The notes under the pieces: model-generated
What the model was told of the DNA's origin: nothing
Database searches by the model: none
Seen by the model: the letters and a program-made list of their open reading frames with translations, nothing else
DNA from: Siderastrea siderea
Lineage: Eukaryota > Cnidaria > Anthozoa > Scleractinia > Rhizangiidae
DNA: 64,000 nucleotides
Reading direction: 5' to 3'
NCBI GenBank assembly: GCA_964030785.1
Contig: OZ034968.1
Coordinates: 41,331,686-41,395,685, forward strand
Shown: positions 13,654 to 39,226 of the stretch, piece after piece
Position numbering within the stretch: position 1 is the first letter of the stretch
Layout: every line of letters begins with the position of its first letter
Made by a program: the position numbers and the translations under genes

Positions 13654-13782
13654 AAAATTAAAAAACGCTTAAGGCCGTGGAAAATGTGTAAAATACAATA
13701 TTAGATAATGAATACAACAATACCATTGTTTCACGACATTTCCACTCGTACAACATATACAACTTATGGTGACGCACCATTT

Positions 13783-14252
13783 GAAGGGCCCGGTGGAAAA
13801 AGGGCTTAAGTGACGATTTGAGGTTAAAATCGAAATTGCTCCTATTTAGCTGAACATTGGCACACAGGCTGGTTTTCATGTGAGGAACGCCGTAGCGCAC
13901 TTATTTCTTGACCTGAGATCTAAAATTTGAAGAATTAGCGTATTACTTTTGCTTAAAACTGACACAAAGAAAACAACAGGACCGTGGATTCTAGGTTGAA
14001 TTCCTTTGTTTTAGTTCAGGCAGAGAACAAAGAAATCTTTTACGCATCACTTGAGCGAGTTCAGTTCAACAACACTTTTCACGCAAAGGTAATATGCTAA
14101 TTCTTCAAATTTTAGATCTCAGGTCAAGAAATAAGTGCGCAACGGCGTTCCTCACATGAAAACCAGCCTGTGTGCCAATGTTCAGCTAAATAGGAGCAAT
14201 TTCGATTTTAACCTCAAATCGTCACTTACGCCCTTTTTCCACCGGGCCCTTC
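13783..14252 (+). mobile_element. Foldback element, copy 1 (~470 bp)
   Basis: It begins GAAGGGCCCGGTGG and ends with the inverse, CCACCGGGCCCTTC. The two arms are about 170 bp each and pair almost perfectly, around an internal loop of about 130 bp. There is no coding capacity. A near-identical copy lies at 27507-27977 in the same orientation, judged by the asymmetric loop. The sequence ATTT flanks the outer side of this copy and the outer side of copy 2. It may be a MITE or a subterminal structure of a larger element. Confidence 0.85.
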
Positions 14253-14304
14253 AGTTGTCTGGCAAGTTTAATGTTGTTTGCGTTACATGATCGAGTTTTG
14301 ATTG

Positions 14305-16184
14305 CTTCCGCTTTAGATGTCTGCGTTGTACTGGGACTAGTGTTTAAAAGTGAAGAGACTGGGTTCCATCGTCCTTCTTCCCTTTATCACCAAATAACTC
14401 ACAGTTAAGACTGACCTTGGGGTTAACATTCACGTGTAATGGCAAGCTTAATTAGGGTTAAATTCGAGCTAGGGTTTTTTTGTGTTAAGGGTTAAATTTG
14501 AGCTAGGGGTTACGGATTGCTTAGGGTTAAATTTTTCCTAGGGTTATGGTGTGTTAAGGGTTAAATTTGACCTAGGGTTACGGTGCGCTTAGGGTTAAAT
14601 TTTTGCTAGGGTTACGGTGTGCTTAGGGTTAAATTTGACCTAGCATTACTGTGCGCTTAGGGTTAAATTTCTCCTAGGGTTACGGTATGCTTAGGGTTAA
14701 ATTTTACTTATGGTTCATGTGTGCTTAGGGTTATTAAGTTTGCTTAGGGTTAAGGTTTGCTTAAAGACCCAGATGACTTAGGGTTCAAAGTTTCTTGGAC
14801 AACCACATAATAAAATAATTTGTGACAGCGAGAGTACAAACAAGGAGTAAACATAAAGAAATTTCATGGTAATGATTGCTTATATTAGCAAAAAGCCTTA
14901 CAATGCTTGCTTCATTCAGGAAATACCGGTAGTTATAACAGTTAACAACAAAAAGTGTTGCAGAAAAAAAAAAAGGAATCTACGATAGGAAAGAATGTAG
15001 ATCTTAAAAACAAGTTGATTCCCATTTAATATTGCTCGCTGAAATAAAGTCTAATGCATGAATTTCTTACACAATGGAATGTATAGCAGAAATTAAAACG
15101 TGTGAAAGCAAGGAAGATAAGATAAAATCTTTCGCGCTACAATGCGCTGACATGTCACAATGTAAACAGAGTAGAGATACCTCAGAAGACAAGGAATCAA
15201 CAAATAATTGTTGTGATATAACGAGGCCCCATGAAACAAAACATTGTTCGATCACTTTTCAAATACAAACAGCTAAAATAATAACCAATATGTTTCATAA
15301 GCAAAGTGAGATGAGTACAGTACGGCCTTTGTTTGGTTCGCACGCGACAAAACGAAGCGAAATTCTAAAACCACAGCAAAGCATGAAAGAAATATGTGAA
15401 GGTTCTACTCACGATTCTGGCGAATACAGTTTTTGTCCATCTTCCTAGTTGCATTCCCAACTCTGTAGTAGATACTTATGCGAGTAATTGATTTGCTGAC
15501 CGTCCGCTAGAATATTTCTCACAGAACGTTTTTGTCTGCAAAGTCCCTGTGTAAACTGTTATGGAAACAACATAGATATCAGAATAGTTCATTTTTCTCG
15601 ATGAGCAGCTTGCAATTCTTGTTTTCTACAATGTTATCCCGCTTTTATCAGTCTGCAATAGCTTGTTTCTCGTGAAGAGACGTATCCAGTTGGCAGGTTG
15701 TCAAAGATTAAACTTTCTTTTCCTTGCAATGCATTCTGGGAAATTTGTAACCACTTTGAGCGGGAAAGATATACGGCCTAGCCATAGCAATACAAAATAT
15801 AAGTCTCCAGCAAGGAAAAAATCTTCGCCCAAAACTTTGTATGCCGTTGCTTTTAATGCCGAAACTCACAGAATTGTACCTTGTTCCCTGCTGGAGACTC
15901 TTCACGATGTACAAAGCTGGGCTTTCTGTTATGCCCTAAGCTCGGTTAAAGCGCCCAATTGAGCCTTCCTGGGCTTCATGATGCCCCAGGCACTTTGCAA
16001 ACCGTGGAAACAAACTTTCCTGCTAGAAATTTGGCTCTTGCATGGCAATTCTACTTCGCTTTTTGCAGGAGCTTCAATCGAACGTCCGTACTCGTATCGA
16101 ATCATTCGAAAGAAGGACGATGGAACCCAGTCTCTTCACTTTCAAACACTAGTCCCAGTACATTGCAGACATCTAAAACGGAGG
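14305..16184. mobile_element. Nested ~1.9 kb element with ~75 bp inverted ends
   Basis: The left end (14305-14380) reads CTTTAGATGTCTGCG onward and matches in inverted orientation the right end (16108-16184, ...CGCAGACATCTAAA-like). The element interrupts sequence that is contiguous in the inverted partner at 27440-27506, which acts as an empty-site reference. It contains the 34 bp minisatellite and small frames (15074-15448, 15663-15962, 15978-16343) without recognisable domains, so I regard it as non-autonomous. The exact target duplication is unclear because the target also contains a CCTCCG-like sequence. Confidence 0.7.
14450..14770 (+). repeat. 34 bp minisatellite with TTAGGG cores
   Basis: Nine or so units spaced 34 bp (starts near 14521, 14555, 14589 and 14623). 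Each carries CTTAGGGTTAAATTT and a second CTAGGGTTACGGT half. TTAGGG is the usual cnidarian telomere repeat, but the two halves have diverged and the period is not 6, so this is an interstitial minisatellite rather than a telomere. Confidence 0.85.
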
Positions 16185-16364
16185 CACAGGGAGCAGAGGA
16201 ATTGTAGTAGAAATATCAATAAAAACGTCTTACCTCTTAACATTGCATTCTTGTGTTTATTAGCGTTGTTAAAACCTCATTTGCAAACCAAATATAAGCA
16301 TTCATTTGCGATCGATCGAACCGAACGGCCATTACTTGAATAGCGTCGACCGCTGCTTGCTGGG
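16185..16364 (+). repeat. Left 180 bp block of a large inverted repeat
   Basis: Nearly identical, inverted, to 27268-27447. The inverted identity continues outward (after skipping the nested element) through 14253-14304 against 27448-27506, up to the foldback elements. The blocks bracket the P-like element but lie outside its 29 bp terminal repeats, separated by unmatched spacers of about 120 bp (left) and 245 bp (right). Confidence 0.85.
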
Positions 16365-16375
16365 ACCGTGTATTC

Positions 16376-16434
16376 CGTTGGACGAAGTCCAACGTATGGG
16401 AAAGCGAAGCTTTCCGAACGAGGCACGAAGTGCC
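16376..16434 (+). other. Three C(GAA)G triloop hairpins at 23 bp spacing
   Basis: Three perfect stem-loops follow one another: stem CGTTGGAC with loop GAA (16376-16394), stem GGAAAGC with loop GAA (16399-16415) and stem GGCAC with loop GAA (16422-16434). Start-to-start spacing is exactly 23 bp both times. Each loop is closed as C-GAA-G, the geometry known to give unusually stable DNA mini-hairpins. The stems differ in sequence while structure and spacing are kept. The cluster sits between the 180 bp block and the left terminal repeat of the P-like element. Confidence 0.85.
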
Positions 16435-16484
16435 GAGAAGAAAAAATGACAAGGGATGAAACATAGTACCACGTGACTCGTCGG

Positions 16485-16513
16485 ATGTGAACCGCGACAT
16501 ACTGGTGACGGAA
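16485..16513 (+). repeat. Left terminal inverted repeat of the P-like element
   Basis: 29 bp with two mismatches to the reversed right end. The core ACATACTGGTGACGGAA is identical on both sides. The similarity continues loosely as a TACGTCA-like motif. Confidence 0.75.
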
Positions 16514-16604
16514 GTGACGTACTATGTTCGGAAGTTCAGCCAACCGTTACTAATCCGAAGTTCAAAACAACAGCTGATTTCAAGAGCTTGGAGGGAGATT
16601 TGAA

Positions 16605-17568
16605 ATGAAACGCGTTTTCTCCAGTGGGGAAAATCTTCCGCAGCGAAAAAAATATAAAGCGGAAGATCGTGGAAAGAAATCTGTAGTCGTGCAATGGTAC
16701 GTTATATTTCTAAGTCAAAAATTCATTATTCTGCGATTTATTTTCATCGATCGATCGATCGATCAATCGATCGTTTGGTAAAAGTGTGCTTAATTTCCTT
16801 TGCAGGCTTTTACACAACTACAAAATTTCTGGGGATAGTTTTCTACCAGGAAAGAAAATTTTTGACGATTACGTTAATAACTGCACCGAGAAAGAAAATT
16901 ATCTACTGCAAGAGATTGAAGTAGGTAGGATTCTGAAGGAGGTGTTTCTTGAAATCAGACGAGTGCAGCGACGAGTTAAAGGAGTAAGAACATGGACGTA
17001 TACACTGTCTAAAATTCAAACTGTTGAAAGAAACGAGAACACATGTTCCATTCCTACCACTGATAGCAGTAGTCAAGCCGCAGATGCAATCACATGGGAG
17101 AATTTACCAATTGTTATCTCGGAATTTGGGTGGCAGTTAGTATGTACAACTGACGACTTCCATGAATGGATTAAGCTCGGGTCGCAGGACTTGTGCGATG
17201 GAAACAGAGTATTGTACGAAGTTAAAATTTTTAAAAATTGGGATTTCACAGTTCATGTAAACAACAAAAAGGTTTCAAGAGAGACACTGGGAATTCAAAA
17301 TTTAAATCCATGCCAGCAACTCGTTCGCTATCTTTTTGATATTTTGAACAAGTGTACTTTATGTAAAGGCTTTCAAGTTCCTTCCAAAAGGATAACCAAG
17401 GACGTTTGTGGTAACATGACAGGAAGAACTGAAGAATGGTGCAGTCGAGAAGATGACACAGTAGTGCTTCAACATCGGTCCACGAAATGCTCGGTGTTAC
17501 TTCCGAACGATTTCAAACGAACGACTAGACGCTACTGTGAGAACTGTGTAAAGCTAAAGAAGAGCTAA
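16605..17568 (+). CDS. Cys-rich accessory protein of the P-like element
   Basis: Two exons, 16605-16696 and 16806-17568, are joined by a GTACGT donor and a TTTGCAG acceptor. The split codon becomes TGG (Trp) and the frame stays open, giving about 284 residues. The N-terminus is basic (LPQRKKYKAEDRGKK). The middle has a predicted globular domain (VISEFGWQLVCTTDDF). The C-terminal ~70 residues carry paired cysteines (CTLCKGF ... CENCVKLKK) with further Cys between, which suggests zinc binding. This is not the C2CH spacing of a THAP domain. It lies only 25 bp upstream of the transposase start and in a different frame, so it could be a separate protein or a lost N-terminal module. The intron holds a GATC microsatellite (16748-16772). 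No named family is recognised. Confidence 0.7.
16748..16772. repeat. GATC microsatellite
   Basis: Tandem ATCG units inside the first intron of the Cys-rich gene. A similar GATC run occurs at 42860-42880. Confidence 0.8.
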
Positions 17569-17593
17569 TACAAATTTGGTCCCTGAAGTAGAC

Positions 17594-17997
17594 ATGGAAA
17601 AGTCACAACCTTCAGCCAAAAAAAGGGACAGTTACATGAGTGAAAATGAATTAAGAGAGAAACTTAATCATGAAAGAACAAGACGAATAAATGCCGAGAG
17701 GAGGGAAAATTATTTAAGGGATAAAATAAATCAAGAGATGAAGAACTTTGACGAAGAAGACCACAAAGATTTCTCTTACATGTTCCAAAGAATAAATAAA
17801 GGGTCAGTCAGTGAGGACATGAAGATATTTTGGGAAGAGCAAGAGAAGGCATTGCATGCCAAGAGTCCCAGAGGCTACAGATGGCATCCAAAGTATGTTT
17901 AAACTTAAACCATGTATTGCTTTTAACTACAATACAGTAGCAATATTTATAATAAAGTATGGACAACAAATAACAACAGCAGCAACAATTAATGCAG

Positions 17998-18029
<32 letters not shown>

Positions 18030-21000
18030 ACAATGACGACACAAATTAATGAAATGAGCAAGTTTTAGATCAGGGGAGAGGTGATAAGAACCTTTATCAA
18101 CTTATTGGCAATTGGAGAAAACAAAACATTTTCTCTTTGTTCATCCTCCATAAACTTTGACTTATGGTATTGTAATCTTCTCTCTCCTTAGGATAATTAG
18201 AATGTGCTTATCAATATGGAACAGAAGTCCAGAGGCCTACAAAGTGTTGCGAGAATGTGGCATGGTAGTTCTTCCTTCTGGTAGGCATCTCCAGAATTAC
18301 AAAAGCTCCTGTTCTCAAAACCCCGGCTTAAATGAATCTGTGGGGAAATGGATGGCACAAGAGGCAAAGAAAAGAAATATAGGCCTTGAAGGAAGGGAAG
18401 GTGGAATCATTCTTGATGAAATGGCTATACAGGTATACTTGTATAAATAAAAATAAAATAAATCACTTTATTTAAGTGTCAGAGTATTAGCAATTGCTAA
18501 TTGGCAACACTGTAAATAAGGAAACAGATATCGTAAATCAACAGAAGCTTAATTAAATTTTCCCTGGTAGGAGGCTGACCAGTTGGCTATTAACAAAGTG
18601 TGGAGGAGTTGAATTTGGGGCCACCAAAGACAAATCCATCTAGTGCCAGGGAGGGGGATTGAAAGCTGGGACCTCTGGATTCTGGGTTCAGCACCCTACC
18701 ACTAGGCAACATTTACCCACTTGTATAAACATTTTATTTCATTTTTTGATATCAATTCAAAGAAACTCTTAGAAGTGAAATTTACAATACAGCTATTGTT
18801 TTCAATTTAACAAACAAAAGCTGCACTTTTAAATTACAATTGCTAAAGGTTTATTGAATTGACCATTGGCTAGAACACTTTACAACTGATTAAACACATA
18901 AAGCCATTTTTTTTGTATTTGTTGTTAAATAGGAGGAACTGCAGATGAAATCAGTGAATGGAGTATGGAAACTAATTGGGCTTGTTTCTTTGGGGGAGGA
19001 CTACAATTGCATGCAAAGAATTATGACAGGTTAGTATTTAAAGTACTTTACCTGTTCATTAGAAACAAATAAATAATTTAATAAATAAATATGTATAAAA
19101 AGAGCATTCAAAATGTCATTCTTCACTAACACTGAGTTTTATTCTTAATGTAATAAATTATAGAGACAAAAAAGAAAGATAGGAAATAGACCACCTATTT
19201 ACTAATAAGTAAATGTAATCAAAGGTGGGTAACTTAACACAATGCCCGGTTACTTGCTACAACAAAAGTACTTAATTATTTATTTCACTTTAATTTATTT
19301 TTTTTAGGAAAAGAGACCATTGAGGTAGCTACACATGTCCTCCAATTTGTGTTCCTGGGAAACAATGGTTTTCGCTTCCCATTTGCACACTTTCCCACCA
19401 CAGAAGTTGATCCATCTACATTATATACTCAATTTTGGAAAGCAGTGGGCTGGCTAAGGCGATATGGTTTCCAGACTAACTTTTGTTGCTGTGATGGTGG
19501 AGAAGCAAACAGAAGCTTCATCAAAATGCATTTTAAAGGGAAAGACCCTGTCAAGGAGAAGTTCACTACAATCAATCCTTACACAAGAAAGCCAATGGTG
19601 TTTCTACTTGATCCTTCTGTAAGTTTACCATAATTTTTTTCTAAATCTTTCCAAGAGGCCCTGTTATTTTTCAAGGGGAAGGGAAGGTAGGGGGTGGGGG
19701 GGGGGGGGGTGGGGTTTAAGAATCGTAATCCTGAGTCAATTCTTGCAATAATCAATGTCCCATTTTTTGGTAAAAAGCAAATAAATAATTTCAAAATATA
19801 CAATGTAGAAACCAGTAATAATCATTTCTTGTAACATTAAAAAGTGCAGTTACTAAGTGACCATAACATTAATGAAATGCACAATTGTAGGAATAGTTCA
19901 TTAAGTTTTAACATTTGCACTGGATTTTTATTCAAATTAAATCATCAATAAATTACTGATAATGACAATTAAAGATAAAGTATTGAAGCCAGTGGACTCT
20001 GCCCATCAGATCAAAATAACCAATAACAGGCCATAATTTCAAAGTGCAAAACAAACAATACATAATTTTTAAATTAATTAGCCAAATAATATGAATGTTT
20101 TCTCTAAATTAGCACAACATTAAGAAGCTGCGAAACAATCTCGAGAAGAGTCGACCTGGGGGAGTACGACTACTGTCATTTGGTGACAAGACGATCCAGT
20201 GGAAACATCTGTACCAAGCTTACAAATGGGACCAGAGTACCAATTCATTGAAAATTCATGAACGACTCTCTGAGGAGCATTTCAGTCTTGGTTATGCAAG
20301 TAGAATGAGGAATCATCTTGCCGAGGAAGTTCTTTCAAAGAAAATGTTATACCTTCTACAGGTACATATTAGATTTTTAAAAACTACATAACAATTGATG
20401 CCCACTTTAGGAATCTCGTTCATTTTCAGGAATTTCATGAACAATATCCCACAGGGGTTTCATATAGGACAAAACTCAATAATAACCTGAAGCACAAACA
20501 CCATACCCAAGGAGGATTATTGGAAATTCCAAGTAGATGGACAGAATACACCATATTCGTATTATCGGTATTGGACTGGAACTAGCTTGCAAATGGAGGC
20601 TCATGCGGGGGAATATCATTAAAAACAGCTTCATGTCATTTGCATTTGAAAAGATTACCTGCATGAGCCTCCATAATTTGCAAGCTAGTTCCAGTCCAAT
20701 ACCAAGAATACGAAAAAGGTCTATTGAAAAGATAGAATTTTTTAGGAAATATGAGTACAAGTGAACCTAAACTGAAATTTCCTAGGGGGGGGGGAGGGTT
20801 CAAGGCCAACCCCCCCCCGGGAGAGTATGGACATTTGCAACAACACCAAAAAATAATACTGATACTGTACCTATGTATTTTTTACTCTCACTGTCAGGCT
20901 TACAAGAAAAATTGTTCACAGACACAAGGCCATGAAGCTACATATCTAGACAAGACAATAGAATTTATTGACATGACCAGCAAAATAGTCAATATTTTTG

Positions 21001-21449
21001 ATGACCGAAGACCTGTAAGCAGTTTGGATGATCATCGCTTAGCTACCAATCGCGAAGTTCTTGATTATCTAAACAGATGGGAGAAAGATGCTGAGGCACA
21101 TACAGAATTAAGTAAAGCCGAGAGAGCAAAGAGACTTTTGTCCGACAAACTTCGATTTGATCTCTCTTCGATGATAATTGGTTTTCGTGAAGTGTGTAGA
21201 ATTGCCTTTGAGCATTTTCCTGGATCCACCATATCGCCATTTCGAACAAACAGTGACTTAGTGGAAAACATCTTTTGCCAGGAACGTGGACACAATGGAC
21301 AGAATTCCAATCCAACCTATGCACAATATGGCCCAACCATGAACAGTATTGTCCTTGGACAGACAACTACAACAACAAGCAGTAACACTGGATCTGTAGA
21401 GAATTTGTGTTTCTTTAAAAATGGAACATTTAGGTCTAAAAAGATGTAG
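17594..21449 (+). CDS. P-element-type transposase (six exons)
   Basis: Exons are 17594-17892, 18192-18432, 18933-19029, 19308-19618, 20113-20361 and 20898-21449. All five junctions have GT/AG sites and matching phases, giving about 582 residues without a stop. Residues 1-100 form a charged, probably coiled region followed by GYRWHPK. The conserved first catalytic Asp lies in ILDEMAIQ (D175) and the second in LLDPSHNIKKLRNNL (D314), the DPxH box shared by Drosophila P transposase and THAP9. The C-terminal module SDLVENIFCQERGHNGQ followed by NPT gives the probable third acidic residue (E522). Between them lies the insertion domain expected in this family. It acts in the nucleus on the element's inverted repeats. 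Unlike most family members it has no visible THAP DNA-binding domain in this ORF. Length is shorter than Drosophila P (751) because of that missing N-terminus. Introns contain a SINE, a hairpin element and G-runs. Confidence 0.88.
17998..18029. repeat. ATG trinucleotide microsatellite
   Basis: About ten tandem GAT units in the first transposase intron. Confidence 0.9.
18575..18712 (-). repeat. Probable tRNA-derived SINE in a transposase intron
   Basis: Read on the minus strand, it starts TTGCCTAGTGGTAGGGTGC, which fits an RNA polymerase III A box. About 35 bp later comes GCTTTCAATCC, a weakened B box (consensus GGTTCGAATCC). The rest is unrelated to a tRNA, as in SINE bodies. The tail and target duplication were not resolved. 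Confidence 0.5.
19690..19713. repeat. G-run in a transposase intron
   Basis: Near-continuous guanines interrupted by single T residues, possibly G-quadruplex forming. Another pair, GGGGGGGGG and CCCCCCCCC, lies at 20787-20818. Confidence 0.8.
20558..20712. repeat. Small hairpin element in a transposase intron
   Basis: Arms of about 50 bp (20558-20606 and 20661-20712) are inverted copies of each other, sharing GGTATTGGACTGGAACTAGC and GAGGCTCATGC, around a ~54 bp loop. It looks like a very small foldback or MITE insertion and does not disrupt the splice sites. Confidence 0.8.
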
Positions 21450-22213
21450 AGTCCTAACAAAAAGGGCATCCCAGGCCATGAAACAAGGTCCTATTGTTGA
21501 GGTGCCTTCCATTTTTCCTGTCATGGCTTATGGGGGATTGTGGGTATTTACACAAAGATTTTTAAAATTTATTTATTAACAATTGGCTGATTTACCTGTA
21601 TCAAAACATGCCTGCACTCATCTCGGAATGCAGACGTTGAGCCTATATTCACCACAGGGTCAGTGAAAATTATACTTACAGGTACCAGTATTACCAGTAC
21701 GTAGCTAACCTTCAATTTTTGGAGTTATTAAGACTTAACGAAAATTTCCCCTTGTTCTGGATTGCATTATGGAATACCTCTAAAAAGCGTTAAAGATACA
21801 TTCAAAAGATATAGCTTGAGAACTTAACATTTATACACGTCATTAACACTTCTCAGGAGCATGAAGTTGTCAATAACAGTAATGACGAGCCAATGTCACC
21901 AACAACACTTTGCTTGCCCTGGTGCATTTTTCATATGAGATGTTTTAAAGTATACCATGTATAATGGTTCACCTCTTATATGCTTTGATTCCATGATCTT
22001 CAATCAGTGTAAGTTTCAGGACATCATGTTCCCTGATCGACTAATTTTCAGGATAAATTTATTAAACAAAGTGCTAAGAGCATTCCGGGTGGCATTGGCT
22101 CTTACTAAACTTCAATGTGCATTTCTAGAAATACTTTGAAGGACTTCATTATAAACCCCTTACACAAAAAAACTTAATTATTGTGCTATGTTACTCAATG
22201 TAGGACATGATAA
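21450..22213. other. Spacer between convergent genes of the P-like element
   Basis: About 760 bp separating the transposase stop from the end of the minus-strand SAP-like gene. It presumably holds both 3' UTRs. No gene is supported. Confidence 0.4.
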
Positions 22214-23671
22214 TCAATTGTGTTTTTCATGCCATGTGATTATGGCCTTTAAAGTGGTCTTAAATTGAACTGATCTTTCATAAGCTCTTGCCATTGCTTC
22301 ATTGGCATGCTGATCTCCACGAAGAATCTCCTCTTCGTTTCTGGATGGCTTGAACCGTTTCCTTATAGGCTCATGACTTGCTCCTGAAGATAATCGTGCC
22401 GCCTGTAAAGGAGCTTCAGTGCCAACCACAGCCTCTGCTAAGTAAAAACAATGACACATTTAAGATTATATTATTTTATGATGTGAGCAATATTTTTCAC
22501 AGAATGTAAATTTTAAGGGCTTTTTAAGAGTTGATGTTCATGAAGTATATATATCATTATTTTTTAATTAATGTTTATTTTAACATGCTAACATGTACCT
22601 TGCAATGGGTCAGATGTTATGTTCCCCTGGATATTTGACGTGCTTGCAACTGGTTCGTTCACTACCTGCTGACTCACTGCAACTGAAATTTTTTTTCCAA
22701 ATGTAATTAATACATGTAAATAGTACAATAAATAGAGTAACTGTTGTTTCCATCACTAACAAAACCAACCTTGCAATGTTGTGCTCTCTCTCTGGACACT
22801 GGCCTCTGTAGTGATGATTCTGGCATTTTCTTCCTGATGACTCACTGCACCTGCACAAGAAGTGTCAACACATGGCAAATAAAGAAAGAAAAGTTTACTC
22901 ATTTGGGCAGGGAATCTTTTGGGAGTTTAATATACTTCACCCTGTACATTGTGTAAAACAAATCAAAAGGTGTCTCATTCTTAGACATAGAGAAGATGGG
23001 TGTAAATAAGGTTTCGAGGATTCATACACGTGTATCAATATTTATAATAATTACATTGTAATAAATGCATTTGCAATTTATTTAGACTTTTTTTGTTCAG
23101 GAACTTTTATTAATAAACTGACCTTCCAGGATTCTCTCATTTTTTATGTTCGATATCCCAAAACTCTTTCCATTTTCCACTTCTGCTTTCCATTAATTTT
23201 TCTCCTGACTATCTCATTTCCAAATAATTGTTATCCCAAATGTCCTCTATTTTTTATTTTATTTTTATTGTTTTACCCCTCTTTCAGAAAAACACAAATT
23301 CATGCAAATACTGTTTCCATTATTTTATAACGAAGCAGCTCAGAACCCATCCGACTAAAATGATCATTCAATAATTTATTTCTGAATTGGATTGATGTCT
23401 TACCTGAACTTCCTGGCTGTGTAGCATCCCTCAATGCAGCAGGATTGGGCACATCACCTGAAGCTTGGATTTTGGTAGTCAACTTTTCTGAAAGTCTAGC
23501 CTTAGACTCACTTCGTTTAAATGCAAGACCATATCCTTTGCACAGTAGTTGAAGTTCATCTTTGGAGTACACTGTACTCTGAAAGATCAATGGCTGCTCA
23601 GTAATCATTGCTTGTAAGCGAATGTGCGATTCCTTTAGATTAGTTGAAGAGTCACTACGAATTGATGTCAT
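22214..23671 (-). CDS. SAP-like accessory protein of the P-like element
   Basis: Four exons, 23404-23671, 22770-22850, 22599-22682 and 22214-22434, all joined in phase 1, give about 217 residues. The ATG at 23671 lies 18 nt after the stop of the upstream ORF on the same strand. Residues around 35-65 read YSKDELQLLCKGYGL then KRSESKARLSEKL, which fits the helix-turn-helix pattern of SAP-type DNA-binding motifs (D/E-L, basic residues, L-x-x-K-L). Exons 2 and 3 are 27 and 28 codons, both bounded by phase 1 introns and similar to each other (AVSHQ... and AVSQQ... ending LQG), so one is a duplicate of the other. The last exon has a basic segment (IRKRFKPSRNEEE). A nuclear, DNA-binding role is inferred. 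It is transcribed towards the transposase. Confidence 0.65.
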
Positions 23672-23688
23672 GGTGACTTTGCTGGAAA

Positions 23689-24654
23689 TCAAGTCTTTTT
23701 CTTTTTTTCAACAACCTTTTTACGGTGGGCCTCTGTTTTCTGTAATTTGTAATCTCGCCTGAAGTCTCGAAGAAATTCACCAACACCCATTTTCACGTAT
23801 CTGTTGATCACGTCGTCATACAGCTGGGCAATTAAATCAGCATCACACAAGGACTCGTCACAGTTTTCATTTTCTCGCTGAGAAAATAGAGCTTTCCACT
23901 TGTGTTTCGGTTGCTGATTGTCCAGCATCCTAGCAAGTGTGATGCTCACTAAATCTTCTTTGTTAGTTGCCAGACTCTGGTTGTTCAGCAAGTTTACTCT
24001 CCCTTGCTCTAACTCAAGACTCCATTCAAACATCTGATCTGTGATGTGGACAAGTCTTCCTTTCTCATATGTCCATGAGAAAGTCACATTCAAAGTATCC
24101 TGGTACTTTGATTCTTCTTTTGCCATGCCACTTGACCAAATCAATTGTTCGAGAAGTTCTTTTTTGGCATAGGCTTCTTTTGCTTTCTTCCGTACTCCAG
24201 GATCTGACGAGCGAATGTTGCTCTTGAAGTACTCTTTGCATCGATGCCTTTCTTTGGCAATAGCCCAGGCACCACAATACCTAACTTTTCCTTTCCCTTC
24301 AGCTGACATATTTTGGACATCAATGTTACAAGCTTCATTACTTAAAGTTGGGAATTGTTGTCCAACTACAGATTTCAAAACAATTGAATTCAGGTTGTAA
24401 ATCAATTCTGTCAAAGCATGGTAATGACATTCAGAGAACATGGAGACAGGAATGTTAATTAACATGACAAATTCCTTTTCCAGGGCATCAGAGACCAGCA
24501 AAGAGTGTAAGTCACTAAAGTGGCATGTGAAATCCTTGCGTTTCACTTTCCTGGTTGGATTTTCTGAGACTTGCTGTCTTATCAGTGAAAATATTCTATT
24601 CCACTGCACACTGACAAAAACTTTAGTTGACTGAAGTAATTCTGGTTCACACAA
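23689..24654 (-). CDS. Uncharacterised ORF, probably the helicase C-terminal extension
   Basis: About 321 codons with no ATG at the upstream end; the frame simply opens where the helicase frame closes and overlaps it by 72 bp in a shifted frame. The sense of the sequence suggests one protein interrupted by a single-base frameshift near 24660. It contains no motif I know. It is rich in Lys and Glu, ends in a basic tail (HRKKVVEKKKK), and has a leucine-rich segment near residue 100. An alternative is a separate protein reached by splicing or by programmed frameshifting. Confidence 0.6.
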   Translation of the reverse strand: MCEPELLQSTKVFVSVQWNRIFSLIRQQVSENPTRKVKRKDFTCHFSDLHSLLVSDALEKEFVMLINIPVSMFSECHYHALTELIYNLNSIVLKSVVGQQFPTLSNEACNIDVQNMSAEGKGKVRYCGAWAIAKERHRCKEYFKSNIRSSDPGVRKKAKEAYAKKELLEQLIWSSGMAKEESKYQDTLNVTFSWTYEKGRLVHITDQMFEWSLELEQGRVNLLNNQSLATNKEDLVSITLARMLDNQQPKHKWKALFSQRENENCDESLCDADLIAQLYDDVINRYVKMGVGEFLRDFRRDYKLQKTEAHRKKVVEKKKKT

Positions 24655-26703
24655 TAGGGAAAAATGGCATTGACATTGGCCACTAATTCTTGTGCATGTA
24701 GTTCCTCTTTTTTAATTGACAGTGTTCGCAGAAAAGTGCCATAATCAAAGTCAACAGGAATTTTGTGGAATTCCTCTGATTCTGACATCTGTGATAACAG
24801 ACTGTCTAAGTCTATTACATCTTCTTCAGCCTGAGCAACATTAGAATCAAGAAATGTTTGGACAATTGCATCAATTTCATCAAAGTTCTCTTCACACAAT
24901 GGTTCATCATCAAAATCAAATTCTTCCTCTGTGGAAGATGACAGTGATGTCAGCTGACAGCATTTCTTTCCTGGTTGTGTAGTAGCATTTGTCACATTAT
25001 CAAGAAAATTCAACACTTCTGGTGCTGCAGGAATCAGCCTATTCTTGTTGAAACCAATCACTCGCAGGTGATCCTTTGATTTTACTCTTGATATGGCCAC
25101 ATACAAATGTCCTGGAGCAAATTCTCGTCCACAATGTACTTCAACTGCTTCTAGTGTTTGCCCTTGGGCCTTGTGTACTGTCATTGCCCACCCCAATTTT
25201 AAGGGAATCTGAGTACGTGTTCCAACCAACTTGTGAGTTTCAATTCTGTCATACACAGACCAGGTCACCCTTTCAACCACAACACTCTCAGTACCATCGC
25301 TTGTAGTGACCACTGGCAATCCATTCAAAAACGATGCCACAGTTCCTTGTACACCATTCTTGATGCGATCATTTATGTTGTAGATGAACATAACTTTCGC
25401 TCCAACTTTAAGAATCAATTTTTCATTTGCCACTAACTCTCTGTCGAACAATTTCTTTTCTCCGATGTCATATGCTTGAAATACCACCTCTTGACCTGGC
25501 AGGCTGTCCAACGTGCACATGTTGGAATAGTCGACATCCTCATTAAGGGGAAAAACCTTTGGAATGAAGTCAAGCTGTAATTCAGCTGGATCCAGTGGTC
25601 TACTGAGGGTTTTAATTAAGTTCAAAGATTGATCACTGCAGCGACCTACAGAAATGTCTTTGAGGAGGTTGACAAGTTCATTGTCATCTTTTGCACGGAA
25701 ACAATCCTCCAGAATCACTTGATGAGGGAATACAAAATGCCATAATTCACTCTGAAAAGCATACTTTCCCTCATCAATTGCACTTGGCACTGGAGGCAAT
25801 TGCAGGAAGTCTCCAAATGCCACCACTTGCAAACCCCCAAACATATAATTGGAATTCCGAATGTTTTGTGCAATATAGTTAATAGTTTCAAATGTCCTTT
25901 TGCTTAACATGGAAATTTCATCGATAAACAGAATTTCAGTCAATCTCCATCGGTTGCTGCATTCCTGATTGGCCAACACATTGCGTAAGAGCTGTTGTTT
26001 GGTTCCTCTACAATGTCCAATTCCAGCAAATGAATGGATCGTGCAGGCAGGGATCTCGCCATAAAGGGTACAGGCAATGCCTGTAGTACATGTGCAGGCA
26101 AACTTCTTATTCTTCCAATTGAGGACATCCAGAATATGTTTTGCAACATATGTCTTACCACAACCGGCAATACCACCAAAATAAACATTGTGCCCTCCTT
26201 GAACTAAATTGAAAATCAGCTGTTGCTGTTCACTTAAAGTACATGTATCAAACCTGTGAAGATACAGGAAGTGTATATTTTAGTTTGCAACAAGGGAACA
26301 TAAGAATATTTACAAAGAGAATACAGTACTAATAGGCAGTTTGTTTGTAAAAGGCATCCACGGTCCTCCACAATGCATGTGCCATCATATACCGGTCAAA
26401 TCGAAGCTTTACCATCCCTGTTGGGCAACACCCCGTGCATTTGAATTTTAATACAGTGACAGTTCGTCATTAATACCTTTCCATCGATATTCATTTGCAA
26501 TGATATGCATTAATTAGCCATGTTTTTGTTCCCACTTTATGAAAAACAGAAGAAAAATCACCATTACAGAACTCTGAAGCAGTTATCCAATCTTACATAA
26601 AGAGTAAGTTAGACACTTCAAACACTTTCCAGAATCAACAAGCACGAAAGTATAATAAAAAAGTTGAAGAAACTTCTCACCTTTCGTCAGACCTTCCCTG
26701 CAT
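24582..26703 (-). CDS. PIF1-family DNA helicase of the P-like element
   Basis: A 23 bp first exon (26681-26703, MQGRSDE) is spliced to 24582-26253; the split codon is Arg and the frame gives about 564 residues. SEQQQLIF precedes Walker A GGIAGCGKT (residues about 34-42). Motif II is FIDEISML (D119, E120), motif III is GDFLQLPP, then comes the family box KLGWAMTVHKAQGQTL and motif VI YVAISRVKSKDHL. These are the hallmarks of superfamily 1B PIF1 helicases, which unwind DNA 5' to 3' using ATP. The core is complete and all catalytic residues are present. After residue ~430 comes an acidic Ser-rich linker (SSSTEEEFDFDDEP). The frame closes at 24582, where the next ORF takes over. Helitron helicases are also PIF1-like, but no Rep/HUH domain is seen here. 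Confidence 0.92.
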
Positions 26704-26994
26704 GGCCACCACGCGTTGATTCGAACAAGACTCTCTTTTAAACAAAACGCCTACAATATCACCAAGCAACGCCGAAGCTTCACATTTTCTTGAGATAGAA
26801 GAATCCAAATTGATAGGAGATAAAATAATCCGATAACTATTTCCGATTTGAACTAACAACGGCAAAGAAGGCAATCGAAATAACCCGCGAAGAGAAGCAC
26901 GTTTTCGCGGAAAACGCTTGCTTTGCTCATGCTCAAAACAATAAAATCACTCGAATGGCTTCCGGTCATGCGCATGACACAATACATGACGTAT

Positions 26995-27023
26995 TTCCGT
27001 CACCAGTATGTAGCGGTGCACAT
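26995..27023 (-). repeat. Right terminal inverted repeat of the P-like element
   Basis: Inverted partner of 16485-16513 with two mismatches in 29. It lies about 290 bp upstream of the helicase start, so the helicase promoter must be within or close to it. Confidence 0.75.
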
Positions 27024-27267
27024 AGTACGAAAAGCCAACTTTCAACGCGAAATGAGCGATCGGCATAATCTCATATAAAGAATCTTTTCATCATAATGGT
27101 TTAGGTAGCTTAAAGATTACTTAAACACAAAACCGCATGCAAAGACTCGGGCTCATTTGATAAATATGAAGCGAGTTATTGGGGAACGAAAATTCGACCG
27201 AAATCTGTTTCTTCCCTTGCCTCTATTCTTACTGCTGTGGTACCTTTGGCGCCCACAGTCCGTTGGA
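27024..27267. other. Spacer outside the right terminal repeat
   Basis: About 245 bp with no match to the corresponding left spacer. It contains CGTTGGAC, the same octamer as the first hairpin stem on the left, but without the paired arm. Confidence 0.4.
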
Positions 27268-27506
27268 CCCAGCAAGCAGCGGTCGACGCTATTCAAGTAA
27301 TGGCGGTTCGGTTCGATCGATCGCAAATGAATGCTTATATTTGGTTTGCAAATGAGGTTTTAACAACGCTAATAAACACAAGAATGCAATGTTAAGAGGT
27401 AAGACGTTTTTATTGATATTTCTACTACAATTCCTCTGCTCCCTGTGACGGAGGTAATAAAAACCCGATCCTGTAACGCAAACAAAATTAAACTTGCCAG
27501 ACAACT
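27268..27506 (-). repeat. Right block of the large inverted repeat
   Basis: Bases 27268-27447 mirror 16185-16364, and 27448-27506 mirror 14253-14304. Here the two parts are contiguous, showing the state before the nested 1.9 kb element entered the left copy. Confidence 0.85.
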
Positions 27507-27977
27507 GAAGGGCCCGGTGGAAAAAGGGCGTAAGTGATGATTTGAGGTTAAAATCGAAATTGCTCCTATTTAGCTGAACATTGGCACACAGGCTGGTTTT
27601 CATGTGAGGAATGCCGTAGCGCACTTATTTCTTGACCTGAGATCTAAAATTTGAAGAATTAGCGTATTACTTTTGCTTAAAACTGACACAAAGAAAACAA
27701 CAGGACCGCGGATTCTAGGTTGAATTCCTTTGTTTTAGTTCAGGCAGAGAACAAAAGAAATCTTTCACGCATCACTTGAGCGAGTTCAGTTCAACAACAC
27801 TTTTCACGCAAAAGTAATACGCTAATTCTTCAAATTTTAGATCTCAGGTCAAGAAATAAGTGCGCAACGGCGTTCCTCACATGAAAACCAGCCTGTGTGC
27901 CAATGTTCAGCTAAATAGGAGCAATTTCGATTTTAACCTCAAATCGTCACTTACGCTCTTTTTCCACCGGGCCCTTC
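27507..27977 (+). mobile_element. Foldback element, copy 2 (~470 bp)
   Basis: Same ends, arms and loop as 13783-14252 with only scattered substitutions. The loop reads in the same direction as copy 1, although the flanks on the inner sides of the two copies are inverted relative to each other. ATTT follows its outer end. Confidence 0.85.
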
Positions 27978-27979
27978 AT

Positions 27980-28034
<55 letters not shown>
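27978..28034. repeat. AAT trinucleotide microsatellite
   Basis: About 18 tandem TAA units directly abutting the foldback element. Confidence 0.95.
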
Positions 28035-29727: not shown

Positions 29728-29861
29728 TTAACAACTGCATCACAAAATGGAGGTTGGGTGCCTGCAATATCCAGGAGCTTCCACTATTGGCAGCCAGCTC
29801 CTAGATGGAGACTGCTCCCATGGCTGGCAAATCCTGGCAAGCCAGCCATGAGCCCCCACGC
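29728..29861 (-). repeat. Split direct repeat A1 of the YR element
   Basis: 134 bp starting TTAACAACTGCATCAC, apparently identical to A2. Confidence 0.9.
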
Positions 29862-29928
29862 AGTAGGGAGGGCAGGCACCCGTCACACTGCGTAAACAGT
29901 GGAAAGAGGGAGGGAAATGGGGGGGGGG

Positions 29929-30118
29929 GGGAAAGCCTTGAAGACGAGGTCCCATGAACTGCCACGCTAATAAACACGCTAATGCCCGAGAACGCTACGG
30001 CACACTTCAGTCGAAGAGCACATGGGATCTGGCGCATGCCCATGTATGAAACGCCGCTGACTCCAAACAACACTGGCGCTCTTTGTTGTTAACTCCGTTA
30101 AATTGCATTTAACTGCAT
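29929..30118 (-). repeat. Split direct repeat B1 of the YR element
   Basis: 190 bp apparently identical to 34443-34632, ending ATTTAACTGCAT and abutting A2. Confidence 0.9.
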
Positions 30119-30252
30119 TTAACAACTGCATCACAAAATGGAGGTTGGGTGCCTGCAATATCCAGGAGCTTCCACTATTGGCAGCCAGCTCCTAGATGGA
30201 GACTGCTCCCATGGCTGGCAAATCCTGGCAAGCCAGCCATGAGCCCCCACGC
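30119..30252 (-). repeat. Split direct repeat A2 of the YR element
   Basis: 134 bp directly adjoining B1. Circular intermediates of such elements bring these repeats together for integration (known for the group). Confidence 0.9.
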
Positions 30253-30398
30253 CAAGCCGGAGGACCTCCGAGCAGCGCGCTAGCAAGCTCGGAGAAGAGA
30301 GGGGCTCATGGATGGGGAAGCCAGAGCCCCGAGAAAACGCCCAAATCCGGAGGCACCCATTAACAGGCAAATAAGTGACAAATGAAATACCATACCTG

Positions 30399-31316
30399 TT
30401 AGGCAAGTCTTTCAGCTACTGAAAGGATGGTTTCCACAGGTGTGCGCACATATAACAAGTAAGCATCGCTCGACCAGCGACCCATCGTCTTAATGAGATG
30501 GTCAGGAACACCTCTCTGAGCAGCAGTTGTTGCGGCTCCAATCCTAAAACTATGCCCTGAAAACTTTCCAGGAATACCTGCTGCCTGTAGAGTGGTTTGA
30601 AGAAACGAGGAAAGCTGCGATCTAGAAAGAGGGGAGCCATCCTGGTACATAAAGAGAGGTCCGAAGCCCGGCCCACGAAGATGAAGGTAGTTTGTTAATG
30701 CAGTCACAGGACAAAGAGGCAAGGAACCACGGCCAAGATAGATGAAACAACCCTGCCTGAAAGGGTCAGTCTTTGAGCACTTGATTAACACTCTGAAGCT
30801 TTGGGGATTTGTGGAGGAGTCTACTTGAAGATCTGCTGCGGTCAAATGCACAGTTGGATCAAAGGTACCATTCGTTGTAAATTCGCCAGCTCTAAGAAAC
30901 CCAAAGAAGCCGAGACAGCAGGCTGCCCATAGCATGACATTGTCAGGGATAGTAAATTCTAAAGACTTGTGCAAGACAGACATAAGGTCAGCTGTCACTG
31001 GCTGGCGCTGAGGGAGATTTGAGCCCTGGTGTCGTTTGATCCCCCTTAAGAGACGCTGAAGTTGAAGACGATTGACAATTGGGTCCGCAAAGCCATAGTC
31101 AATATGTAAAGAACGGACTGCAGACAAATATACTTTAATGGAAGAATGGTGAAGACGATCAGCCAAATGGGTACAAAAACGCATGAGAGTTTGTTCACTG
31201 GCTGGTAAAAGGGGCTGACTTGGCTCGATGGGAGTATCCTGACTACAAAATTCTAAAAATTGACGTTGAGCAGAAGCATAAACTTGGCGAGTAGAAGGTG
31301 CAAGGCCATTGGTCAA
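30399..31316 (-). CDS. Tyrosine recombinase of the YR retroelement
   Basis: 305 residues. The N-terminal part (about 1-110) has the core-binding helices with VKVYLSAVRSLH-like content. The catalytic domain shows the Arg in GFLRAGEF, a Lys in KCSKTDPF, the H-x-x-R box in GHSFRIGAA, Trp in GRWSSDAY and the downstream Tyr nucleophile near YVRTP. All key residues are present and there are no stops. It replaces the integrase of LTR elements and joins a circular DNA copy to the target. It follows the RT gene by about 20 bp in the same direction, so both are probably translated from one transcript. Confidence 0.93.
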   Translation of the reverse strand: MTNGLAPSTRQVYASAQRQFLEFCSQDTPIEPSQPLLPASEQTLMRFCTHLADRLHHSSIKVYLSAVRSLHIDYGFADPIVNRLQLQRLLRGIKRHQGSNLPQRQPVTADLMSVLHKSLEFTIPDNVMLWAACCLGFFGFLRAGEFTTNGTFDPTVHLTAADLQVDSSTNPQSFRVLIKCSKTDPFRQGCFIYLGRGSLPLCPVTALTNYLHLRGPGFGPLFMYQDGSPLSRSQLSSFLQTTLQAAGIPGKFSGHSFRIGAATTAAQRGVPDHLIKTMGRWSSDAYLLYVRTPVETILSVAERLA

Positions 31317-31336
31317 GTAGAACTGGCATTTATCTG

Positions 31337-33427
31337 TTAAATTACGGGCAGCTGAGCCAGCAGCGTTGACGGAATTGGAGTTGCCCCAGGAGCTGCGTGA
31401 GGAGCAAGATGATGGAAACGCTGAAAATCAAAACGAGATAAGGCATCAGCAATGGAGTTGTCTTTACCCGGTGTATGAGAAGCAGTAAAGGCAAAGGAAT
31501 GTCGGGCTGCCACAAGTGACAAGTGACGGAGAAGAACCATCATGTTTGGATCCTTCGTGGTGCCGGAACGCAAAACATTAACAACCGCCATGTTGTCTGA
31601 GCAGAACTCAACTCGTTTTGAAGCCCATCGGTGGCCCCATAAGGAAGCAGCGATAACGACGGGAAACAACTCTTTGTAGGCAATTGACAAGGTATGCTGA
31701 ACAGCTGACCATTCACCCACAAACCATTCATGATCAAAGATTGCACCATAACCCCGAGCACCCGCAGCATCTGAGGAAACGTAAAAATCAGGTAGGGACG
31801 CCCACTGTGGGGAGAGCAGGAAACTGAGACCATCCCAAGAATGGAAAAATTCTCGCCACCAGCGAAGGTCTAAGCGAAAGTCTTGGTTGATCCTAATCGG
31901 GTGGTCATCACGTCGAAAGGCTGACAACAAATTAATCATACGTCGCAAGAAGGTACGCCCCTGAGGAACTACTTTACATGCATGTTGGAGATTGCCAATG
32001 AGAGATTCCAGCTCCTTCCTTGTGCAATGACGTTTGATGGACCAGGATTCAAGAAGAGCAGCAATACGATCAAACTTATCACGTGGCAGACGGGCCTGAA
32101 GTGAAAGAGAATCGAGCTCAATACCGAGCACAGTTAAACAAGTGCATGGCCCCTCCAGTTTGTTTGGGTGAAGAGGAATACCCCACTCTTTAAACAGCTT
32201 AACACAAGTAGCAATATTGTTCTGGCAGATGGGTGAGTTAGGAGGGCCCAACGTATGGAAGTCATCCAGGTAGTGTAATAGGAAATTCACATTATAATTG
32301 TGTTTGAGGATCCACTCAAGCATATCTGCAATGGAGGAGAAGATGAATGGAGCCGAGCGTAGTCCAAATGGAAGCGCCATATCAATAAAATATTTTCCGC
32401 GCCACTTCATTCCAAGCAAGTAACGATCATCAGAATGGACGGGGACATTACGATAAGCACTTTCCACATCAAACTTTGCCATCAGTGATCCTCTACCGTG
32501 AAGCATGATCCCATCGATGACATCATCAACCTTCATGTACTGCGCTGAAAAGGGTTCTTTTGGAATGCCGTCATTGACACTATGGCCTAAAGGACTAGAC
32601 AAATCCAAGATAAGCCGCCATTTTCCAGGCTGGTACTTCTTTGGGATAATGCCAAATCGACTCACATGGAGGTTTGGGATAGGTGCTATAGCGAAGGGGC
32701 CAGCAACACGGCCTTTGTCGAGTTCCGTGAGGAGATACTGGTCGATGACTGAAGGCTGAAGGGATGCTGAAGGCATATTTTTATTTTCCGATTTTAAAGA
32801 TACAGCCAGAGGATCAAAACCAAGATGAAAACCATTTGTGAGACCTGAAATCACATAATCCACTTGCGTTTGGTCGGGGTAAGAACCCAGTTCATGCTGA
32901 AGTTTTTCCACATCTATGGGGGTTACTCTGGATGGGGGGACCAGGTCTTGCTGCGAAGTGCCCAAAATGGACAACGAACAAGAGGGCAAAGGATGGGGTG
33001 CCATTGCAGAGGGCATGCTACTACCAAGAACATCTTGTGGTGTAGGAACAACAACATTAACAGGAACGGGAACCAAACAACTTGAAGAGGAAACTGAACG
33101 TGAAGAATGTACACTATTTACAAATGGTTTGGATCCCCTTTCAACGCCGCTGACGTTTGCTTTGGGATGGGGGAGTTGACTGGGAGCGCCGATAGGAAGA
33201 GGTTGAGGCCCGAAAGGGACAGTTGACGCGTGGATGATCACCTTCACATTTCTCACAGCGATGGCGGTACCGGCATTGACCAAAGGTCCAGCGACAGGCA
33301 CCATCATTCCAAGAACGGCAAAAGGTGGATGAACTGGCAATCGACGCTGAAGCTGGGGATGAAGTGGATGGCTGCTGGCTTGACTGAGGATGGGGTGATG
33401 CAAGAGTATGGAAGTTGTACAAATCAT
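31337..33427 (-). CDS. Reverse transcriptase-RNase H of the YR retroelement
   Basis: Up to 696 codons. The reverse transcriptase domain (about residues 240-430) includes FDVESAYRNVPV, the LPFGLRSAPFIF box and the catalytic YLDDFHTLG. RNase H follows (about 540-680) with VSSDAAGARGYGA, YKELFPVV, FCSDNMAVV and HTPGKDNSIADALSR, supplying its D-E-D-D residues. The open frame begins inside gag and overlaps it by about 290 bp in another frame, so it may be expressed by frameshifting or re-initiation and the real start may be later. Copies the element RNA to DNA, probably in the cytoplasm or nucleus. Confidence 0.93.
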   Translation of the reverse strand: MICTTSILLHHPILSQASSHPLHPQLQRRLPVHPPFAVLGMMVPVAGPLVNAGTAIAVRNVKVIIHASTVPFGPQPLPIGAPSQLPHPKANVSGVERGSKPFVNSVHSSRSVSSSSCLVPVPVNVVVPTPQDVLGSSMPSAMAPHPLPSCSLSILGTSQQDLVPPSRVTPIDVEKLQHELGSYPDQTQVDYVISGLTNGFHLGFDPLAVSLKSENKNMPSASLQPSVIDQYLLTELDKGRVAGPFAIAPIPNLHVSRFGIIPKKYQPGKWRLILDLSSPLGHSVNDGIPKEPFSAQYMKVDDVIDGIMLHGRGSLMAKFDVESAYRNVPVHSDDRYLLGMKWRGKYFIDMALPFGLRSAPFIFSSIADMLEWILKHNYNVNFLLHYLDDFHTLGPPNSPICQNNIATCVKLFKEWGIPLHPNKLEGPCTCLTVLGIELDSLSLQARLPRDKFDRIAALLESWSIKRHCTRKELESLIGNLQHACKVVPQGRTFLRRMINLLSAFRRDDHPIRINQDFRLDLRWWREFFHSWDGLSFLLSPQWASLPDFYVSSDAAGARGYGAIFDHEWFVGEWSAVQHTLSIAYKELFPVVIAASLWGHRWASKRVEFCSDNMAVVNVLRSGTTKDPNMMVLLRHLSLVAARHSFAFTASHTPGKDNSIADALSRFDFQRFHHLAPHAAPGATPIPSTLLAQLPVI

Positions 33428-34361: not shown

Positions 34362-34442
34362 ACAAACGAAAGAAACAACCGTAAGATTCGAAACGACGAA
34401 CGAAAAACAAATGATGCACACGCTACTCAGGATAAGGACAAA

Positions 34443-36257: not shown

Positions 36258-36432
36258 TTCCGGCCCCTTAAAGGTGGTACTGCAGATAGCCTTTACAAGG
36301 AGAAAGAAAGAGGGGTTTGAAACATGAGGTTGACTATGATTAATATTATTAATTGATTACGTATTGTCCAATAGAGTTCTGTAATCCACTGATACTAATG
36401 GATTGTCAGTGTTCATTTTTTTCTTCGTTACT

Positions 36433-39184: not shown

Positions 39185-39226
39185 TTTCAGCTGAAGAAGT
39201 CGGCGCTCTGTTAATGTTCTGTTGTT

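Follow-up and report, generated by a model that had tools for sequence, protein, structure and literature searches.

The Drosophila P element, vertebrate THAP9 and zebrafish Pdre2 carry a THAP domain as the DNA-binding part of a transposase that is their sole gene. According to the accessible parts of published descriptions, canonical P elements and Pdre2 have terminal inverted repeats (TIRs) of 31 bp (13 bp in Pdre2) and an 8-bp target duplication, the P element being 2.9 kb long. The Galileo elements of Drosophila, which also belong to the P superfamily, make a 7-bp target duplication, and Helitrons encode a rolling-circle Rep fused to a PIF1-type helicase and have neither TIR nor target duplication. 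As far as the available portions of the two papers go, Galileo has TIRs of 0.5-1.2 kb and THAP as its DNA-binding domain (PMC3688188), and RepHel is the Helitron protein (PMC6431247).

Here we describe a complete transposon of 11,263 bp, at 16185-27447 of a 64,000-nt stretch of the genome of the coral Siderastrea siderea (the "window"), which is probably a cut-and-paste DNA transposon with two genes, belonging to the P superfamily and encoding an RFX-P transposase and, as part of its transposition cycle, a PIF1 helicase. It differs from the P element, THAP9 and Pdre2 in having RFX instead of THAP and a second gene, and, to judge from those partial accounts, in the length of its TIRs (183-683 bp in this and related families, against 31 or 13 bp), in its target duplication (7 bp against 8 bp in the P element) and in its size (11 kb against 2.9 kb). 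Long TIRs are shared with Galileo (183 bp here, 658-683 bp in other families), which has THAP where this element has RFX and for which no helicase is named in the part of the source available. With Helitrons the element shares a PIF1-type helicase, which is free-standing here and accompanied by TIRs, a 7-bp duplication and a DDE transposase.

Extent of the element and its copies

The sequence-only reading had placed the ends of the element at 16485 and 27023, on a pair of 29-bp inverted repeats. These repeats are real (score 23, with no value above 14 among 200 dinucleotide shuffles) but they are subterminal, since the copies found elsewhere in the genome are almost identical beyond them as well and similarity stops only at 16185 and 27447, the outer limits of a 183-bp TIR (Table 1); the element thus runs 300 and 424 bp further out than had been supposed. 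In all eight of the other left flanks, similarity starts at 16183-16185. Two further repeat pairs were considered in other roles. The 9-bp direct repeat ACATAGTAC at 16461-16469 and 27020-27028 was rejected as a target duplication because the copies place it inside the element, and the outer repeats at 16185-16367 and 27265-27447 were rejected as a flanking foldback element because the copies identify them as the TIR. An empty site, which the earlier reading had proposed to look for, occurs within the same window at 14219-14379, where the joined flanks of the element align without a gap (150/161 identical).

Table 1. Features of the transposon and its surroundings, in window coordinates
Feature	Positions	Strand	Details
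Empty site	14219-14379	-	related copy of the invaded repeat, insertion absent; 150/161 identical
Left target duplication	16178-16184	.	ACGGAGG, 7 bp; identical bases at 27448-27454
Left TIR	16185-16367	+	183 bp, starts CACAGGGAGCAGAGG; 99% complementary to 27265-27447
Left subterminal inverted repeat	16484-16513	+	29-bp repeat of the earlier reading; repeat pair, shuffles, genome scan
Transposase, N-terminal part	16605-17568	+	exons 16605-16696, 16806-17568; RFX winged helix (predicted) and Cys-rich domain
Transposase core	17594-21449	+	exons 17594-17892, 18192-18432, 18933-19029, 19308-19618, 20113-20361, 20898-21449; catalytic D175, D275, E522
Helicase protein, SAP-like C-terminal part	23300-23692	-	further exons possible down to ~22,217
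Helicase protein, middle domain	23692-24654	-	no known family; unidentified ORF of the earlier reading
PIF1 helicase domain	24585-26255	-	PF05970, 1.1e-28; short first exon predicted at 26680-26703
Right subterminal inverted repeat	26995-27024	-	repeat pair, genome scan
Right TIR	27265-27447	-	183 bp; partner of left TIR, copy comparison, flanking duplication
Right target duplication	27448-27454	.	ACGGAGG, 7 bp

A genome scan found seven copies at unrelated loci, the window included, that carry both genes between both subterminal repeats, the PIF1 helicase gene being present in 7/7 of these two-ended copies. The proposal of a multi-gene P-like transposon with its own PIF1 helicase is thereby borne out, as is the co-occurrence of both genes between the same 29-bp repeats that it had named as a check. 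Every one of the six copies that keep both outer ends has a target duplication (five exact over 7 bp, one matching at 6/7). Copies of the window family differ by less than 0.8%, which makes it a family of sufficiently recent origin for study. One sister, C5:4354455, does have the transposase without the helicase, the kind of copy that the earlier reading had counted against itself, but this sister is only partial and has been rearranged, and it lacks a matching target duplication. It is these ends, duplications, empty site and several young copies, together with the domain make-up and conserved catalytic residues described below, on which the identification as a transposon is based.

An RFX-P transposase and a PIF1 helicase fusion

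The spliced P-type transposase recognized earlier has a core of 582 aa in six exons with GT-AG borders, matching the Pfam families TNP-like RNase H N (5.7e-10) and TNP-like GBD (3.2e-9), and its RNase H core is interrupted by the GTP-binding-type insertion that is a feature of the P superfamily. It has the D, D, E residues of the superfamily plus the [C/D](2)H signature. D175 and E522 had been correctly picked out as catalytic, but D314, which had been added to them, lies in the signature and corresponds to Drosophila D339; D275 is the second of the two catalytic Asp residues. A weak pairwise alignment to the Drosophila P transposase (E 0.21) suggests that the GTP-contacting D528 and S409 are kept and D444 is not. 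What had been taken for a separate Cys-rich protein belongs to the transposase: the two form a single protein in relatives, and the Cys-rich part and the first exon of the core are in one frame in 6/6 sister copies. This part holds an RFX DNA-binding domain (Pfam, 4.4e-8) that resembles those of RFX1 and RFX5 in sequence and in predicted winged-helix fold, here as the N-terminus of a transposase, and the order of the whole protein is RFX winged helix, Cys-rich domain, coiled-coil stretch and P-type RNase H core. THAP was absent from the Pfam matches of the window proteins, and it is not one of the 10 families listed across 59 relatives; as predicted from sequence, the RFX winged helix occupies the position that THAP has in P transposases. 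RFX X-box motifs were tried as markers of the ends and rejected, as they are not enriched there and 2-mismatch matches are scattered over the whole element. As for DNA binding and chemistry, we infer that the terminal and subterminal repeats are most likely the binding sites of the transposase, which would excise and reinsert the element with a 7-bp duplication.

Convergent to the transposase, as had been noted, is a PIF1 helicase, which has the PF05970 core (1.1e-28; 100.8 bits, the cut-off being 25.9) together with the helicase motifs. The "helicase", "unidentified ORF" and "SAP-like gene" of the sequence-only reading are not separate genes: the PIF1 domain, the middle domain and the SAP-like part are joined in a single chain in a relative with 98% identity and in further relatives (the SAP-like part being fused to the helicase protein in relatives P0121, P0126 and P0128), and they share one frame in 3/6 sister copies and not in the other 3/6. 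For the middle domain, which is conserved, nothing convincing came from Pfam and PDB sequence searches, and the SAP-like label is to be read as a weak match only (SAP_new25, E 0.038, under the Pfam cut-off). Instead of five genes, the element therefore has two convergent ones, which in the window copy are split by three frame interruptions: near 17,560 in the transposase, ahead of the core, and near 24,650 (middle domain) and 23,700 (SAP-like part) in the helicase protein. Because of these interruptions and the three sisters that lack an intact helicase frame, it may be that many copies rely on others, or that single jumps can do without the helicase.

Helitrons are driven by a helicase of the PIF1 type, and the Helitron Helraiser is a weak PDB match (1.2e-4) for the C-terminal helicase motif region, so that the locus might have been two separate elements, nested or adjacent, namely a P element and a Helitron or similar PIF1 element. 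This is extremely improbable, and for the window family the copies and the empty site rule a nested Helitron out. The Pfam matches of the window helicase include no Rep family, and full-length relatives of 930-999 aa start near helicase motif I; the helicase is not enclosed by long repeats of its own; and one TIR pair and one duplication are common to both genes in several copies and families.

Linkage of the two genes in other families and hosts

Genome-wide, the helicase middle domain lies within 15 kb of 36/54 P-transposase loci, and in 36/36 of these the two genes are convergent; in searches that score part of the candidates only, 18/54 transposase loci had no middle domain nearby and 23/59 middle-domain loci had no detected transposase. 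Sixteen of the 18 transposase loci without helicase form one branch at 30-35% identity, which evidently does without it. In two divergent families, with helicases only 28-30% identical, the ends are of the CACAGG type, the TIRs measure 683 and 658 bp and 7-bp duplications flank the element (4/4 copies). The pairing of the transposase and helicase genes is therefore a repeated one. Relatives of both proteins also occur in the hemichordate Ptychodera, with coral-Ptychodera identities of 52% for the transposase and 33-35% for the helicase. Linkage there is visible solely in matches of contig size (48,197,526 and 53,098,162 bases), which we rejected as proof of gene linkage: the matches are in Ptychodera only and the contigs are of chromosome scale, making this weak alone. 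In viral and prokaryote collections, relatives of the transposase and helicase were not found; a profile of the C-terminal part of the helicase did hit 11 viral loci, where the match covers no more than query residues 1-37 to 1-40, a generic helicase motif.

These data bear on whether the helicase, after a single capture, has been carried along as a passenger with a use unrelated to transposition (e.g., in general repair or in opposing silencing by the host). Transposons often capture host genes, and the helicase frames are interrupted in 3/6 sister copies. Against this, the pairing and the convergent order are kept, with the helicase frames still open, across families only 28-30% identical in the helicase, and both proteins are present in a hemichordate. 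A neutral gene would have decayed over such divergence, which disfavours a neutral passenger, and we regard the passenger explanation as decidedly unlikely.

A proposed place for the helicase in the transposition cycle

With the helicase taken as part of the transposition cycle, its place in that cycle can be proposed. The RFX-P transposase would bind the terminal and subterminal repeats, cut the element out and insert it elsewhere with a 7-bp target duplication; the excision gap would be recopied from the sister chromatid, with D-loop migration that a helicase of the PIF1 type could power; and the donor site would regain the element, such that copy number would rise. A helicase role in copying or repairing DNA around excision is plausible, if short of probable. 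In the P element, a textbook case of cut-and-paste transposition, host pathways repair the donor break. One account counts the Drosophila homologue of the Bloom helicase among the proteins involved (PMC7776569). The same account describes an unusual 17-nt stagger in the cut made by P transposase (PMC7776569), and the helicase might instead act in the chemistry of transposition, by unwinding the staggered or frayed ends, pairing the ends over long repeats, or dismantling the strand-transfer complex; TIRs of 183-683 bp could also form hairpins that a helicase could resolve. We consider this unlikely: canonical P elements and Pdre2 manage without a helicase of their own, as far as their partial descriptions tell, and 16 transposase loci of another branch in the same genome have none nearby.

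Neither a P element that carries PIF1 or RFX nor a transposase with RFX at its N-terminus was found in a literature search that had most subscription papers and Repbase outside its reach. The family may already have been deposited in a repeat library as P-type, its helicase annotated but undiscussed in print. Coral repeat libraries exist, and the relatives of the transposase include proteins named "Transposable element P transposase"; the literature search, however, turned up no such P element, and we think prior deposition somewhat unlikely.

A broader proposal, which we put forward tentatively, is that RFX-P/PIF1 elements may be an old and separate P-type branch in animals (at least cnidarians and hemichordates) with its own repair motor, in which the PIF1 fusion would drive recopying into the gap, with gain of copies, and RFX would take over from THAP in binding the ends. 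The module with which P transposases bind DNA appears to be exchangeable, a predicted RFX winged helix here taking the position of THAP, and a P-type family that brings its own PIF1 helicase allows a direct test, within a single mobile element, of how excision is linked to repair.

Ends, target site and copies of the element

The sequence-only reading had placed the ends of the element at a pair of 29-bp inverted repeats (16485-27023). This inverted repeat is real: it scores 23, and 200 dinucleotide shuffles of 16300-27200, with the arms required to lie 9 kb or more from each other, never exceeded 14, but it is subterminal, for sister copies are nearly identical to the window far outside it. 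Likeness to the window starts at 16183-16185 in all eight left flanks and stops at 27447-27456 in six of seven right flanks (the seventh, that of C14, already at ~27228), where the partial copies C5:4354455 and, among the left flanks alone, C3:71091031 are included in the counts; from these borders, the ends of the element are 183-bp terminal inverted repeats (TIRs). The 7-bp duplication just outside the TIRs is exact in five of six two-ended copies (window, C2, C5, C7, C12) and agrees at six of seven bases in the C4 copy, C14 and C3:71091031 not being scorable, and the partial copy C5:4354455 has no 7-bp duplication at its ends. The joined window flanks align without gaps to 14379-14219 (150 of 161 identical), and 14219-14379 is an unoccupied copy of the repeat that received the element; since the transposon lies inside the second copy of this repeat, the first is an empty site. 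An empty site, by which the sequence-only reading had wanted the ends and the target duplication defined, is therefore present in the window itself.

The window corresponds to C3:41331686-41395685 of the 831-Mb assembly, whose source, judged by its nearest named relatives, is probably an anthozoan. Scanning this genome for the subterminal repeat (30 bp, at most three mismatches) gave 33 matches (9 left-type, 7 right-type and 17 of variant types) versus none in the reversed-sequence control. Left and right repeats are paired at seven loci (C2, C3, i.e., the window, C4, C5, C7, C12 and C14), with a spacing of 10.5-10.7 kb at five of them and of 8.4-8.5 kb at the two that are shortened, and transposase exons, PIF1 and the middle domain are present at all seven, so that the enclosure of both genes by one repeat pair recurs outside the window. 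Over alignments that start 218-244 bp inside the left end, the window copy differs from its six sisters by 0.61-0.76% mismatches. Precise ends, target duplication, empty site and recent copies show this to be a mobile element.

Of the 17 variant matches, found at loci such as L073-L077, most read GATGTGGACCGTAACATACTGGTGACGGAA. At five variant loci that were read, likeness to the element extends mainly over ~90-120 bp around the repeat (84-87%), as expected of non-autonomous relatives.

Features of the window and of two divergent families in the same genome
Feature	Position	Strand	Size, repeats and matches	Ends
Repeat with hairpin, first copy	13782-14379		177-180-nt hairpin	
Repeat with hairpin, second copy, split by the transposon	16101-16184 + 27448-27981			
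Palindromic stretch in last transposase intron, perhaps a small nested element	20545-20725		50-nt arms 90% complementary, 81-nt loop	
Tandem array	14438-14744		34-bp unit	
Dispersed inverted repeat pair	11012-11709 / 57674-58365		82-94% alike, ~46 kb apart	
Reverse transcriptase (RT) ORF adjoining tyrosine-recombinase ORF, which we take to be a DIRS-type element from its looks	29728-34639	minus	split direct repeats 29728-29861/30119-30252 and 29929-30125/34443-34639	
Pao/BEL-type retrotransposon	35346-42401	minus	300-nt direct repeats 97% alike, enclosing Peptidase_A17, DUF1759, integrase and DUF5641 matches	
Gypsy-type retrotransposon	46388-51187	minus	157-nt direct repeats 98% alike, enclosing gag, RT, RNase H and integrase matches	
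Family 3	C5:5.42 Mb, C10:39.86 Mb		13.4-13.7 kb, TIR 658 bp	CACAGGACACCC / CATAGGAAGCCC
Family 4	C10:23.42 Mb, C11:19.25 Mb		~9.5 kb, TIR 683 bp	CACAGGCAGACC

Gene content

Comparison of the predicted proteins indicates that five supposed genes are really two. The spliced P-element-type transposase recognized earlier stands: its plus-strand core (582 aa) is spliced from six exons with GT-AG borders and matches the Pfam domains TNP-like RNase H N (5.7e-10) and TNP-like GBD (3.2e-9). The Cys-rich protein, which had been read as separate, holds an unexpected RFX DNA-binding domain (Pfam 4.4e-8, 34.1 bits, cut-off 27) and also matches the solved RFX1 domain (E 0.0019). Among the best 120 of 132 database matches to the core, which come from Oculina, Porites, Ptychodera, Branchiostoma, molluscs and metagenome contigs, 59 are at least 700 aa long and 14 align with the Cys-rich protein ahead of the core (E up to 1e-3). 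Likeness to the Ptychodera relative P0002 crosses the Cys-rich/core junction (VPEV), cysteines 211, 255, 268 and 271 (numbering of relative P0003) are at least 90% conserved in 59 aligned relatives, and the RFX part shares one frame with the first core exon in all six sister copies. Against such a fusion, Oculina P0001 (569 aa), which is the closest relative, starts only at the core.

The PIF1 helicase is likewise confirmed, on the minus strand and with a short first exon predicted (Pfam PIF1 1.1e-28), but the unidentified ORF and SAP-like gene listed beside it are joined to it in relatives. P0121 (882 aa), 98% identical, has PIF1, the unidentified ORF (the middle domain) and the SAP-like part in one chain, an order repeated in P0126 (993 aa), P0128 (999 aa), Ptychodera P0142 (930 aa) and Glandiceps P0144 (936 aa). 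Three of the six sister copies carry all three parts in one frame of 896-994 aa, and the frame is interrupted in the remaining three. From the single-chain relatives of both proteins, the window copy carries three frame interruptions (near 17,560, 24,650 and 23,700), real or assembly-derived, of which the genome holds uninterrupted counterparts (RFX part and first core exon in six of six sisters, helicase in three of six). Two middle-domain relatives, P0188 (Ruditapes philippinarum) and P0148, have a C-terminal PHD finger match in place of the SAP-like tail.

Association of the two genes

The transposase search of this genome yielded 83 pieces at 54 loci, both lower bounds, since scoring covered 75 of the 389 candidates from a first look. 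Among 150 scored PIF1 pieces, one or more lie within 15 kb of 31 of the 54 loci (0.29 expected by chance), convergently in 30 of 31. A middle-domain probe (85 pieces, 59 loci) fell within 15 kb of 36 of the 54, always convergently (36/36), leaving 23 domain loci with no transposase found nearby and 18 transposase loci without the domain. Sixteen of these 18 (e.g., C8:53694060-53695223) are 30-35% identical to the window transposase, 11 of them with single frames of 673-686 aa, and they evidently form a second, helicase-free branch of P-type elements in this genome.

Two copies each were read of families 3 and 4, and all four have exact 7-bp duplications (CTCAAAT, GTTAAAC, TTACTGC, CACTGAT); in family 2 (two copies) the right end is CACAGG and the left end passes into an AT repeat. 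The helicase frames of families 2, 3 and 4 (811-832 aa) are 28-30% identical to P0126. In families 3 and 4, the frames for the N-terminal part of the transposase align at 25-36% with the same part of relatives and gave no Pfam RFX match, so that RFX is shown only for the window family and near relatives. Both proteins also occur in another animal, Ptychodera flava, and the two helicases found there both lie on contigs equal in length to contigs with a family transposase. The two genes have been kept together over deep divergence.

Place among P elements and proposed working

The structure of the element is well supported, and its transposase core places it in the P superfamily. It is not a canonical P element, from which it differs in lacking THAP, in the size of its target duplication, in the length of its TIRs and in the number of its genes; Galileo has long TIRs in common with it but a THAP domain (PMC3688188). 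Our literature search, which covered search listings and passages of PMC7776569, PMC10983969, PMC8230255, PMC3688188, PMC6431247 and PMC10027918, found no such P-type element with PIF1 or RFX.

In the working we propose, the RFX part would bind the repeats, the transposase core would cut and join as that of the P element does, and the PIF1 protein would serve transposition. The helicase may act in strand processing or complex disassembly; donor-gap repair by copying is favored over these, because P elements gain copies in this way and PIF1 enzymes are able to drive D-loop migration, and such repair would most likely be the role of the helicase.
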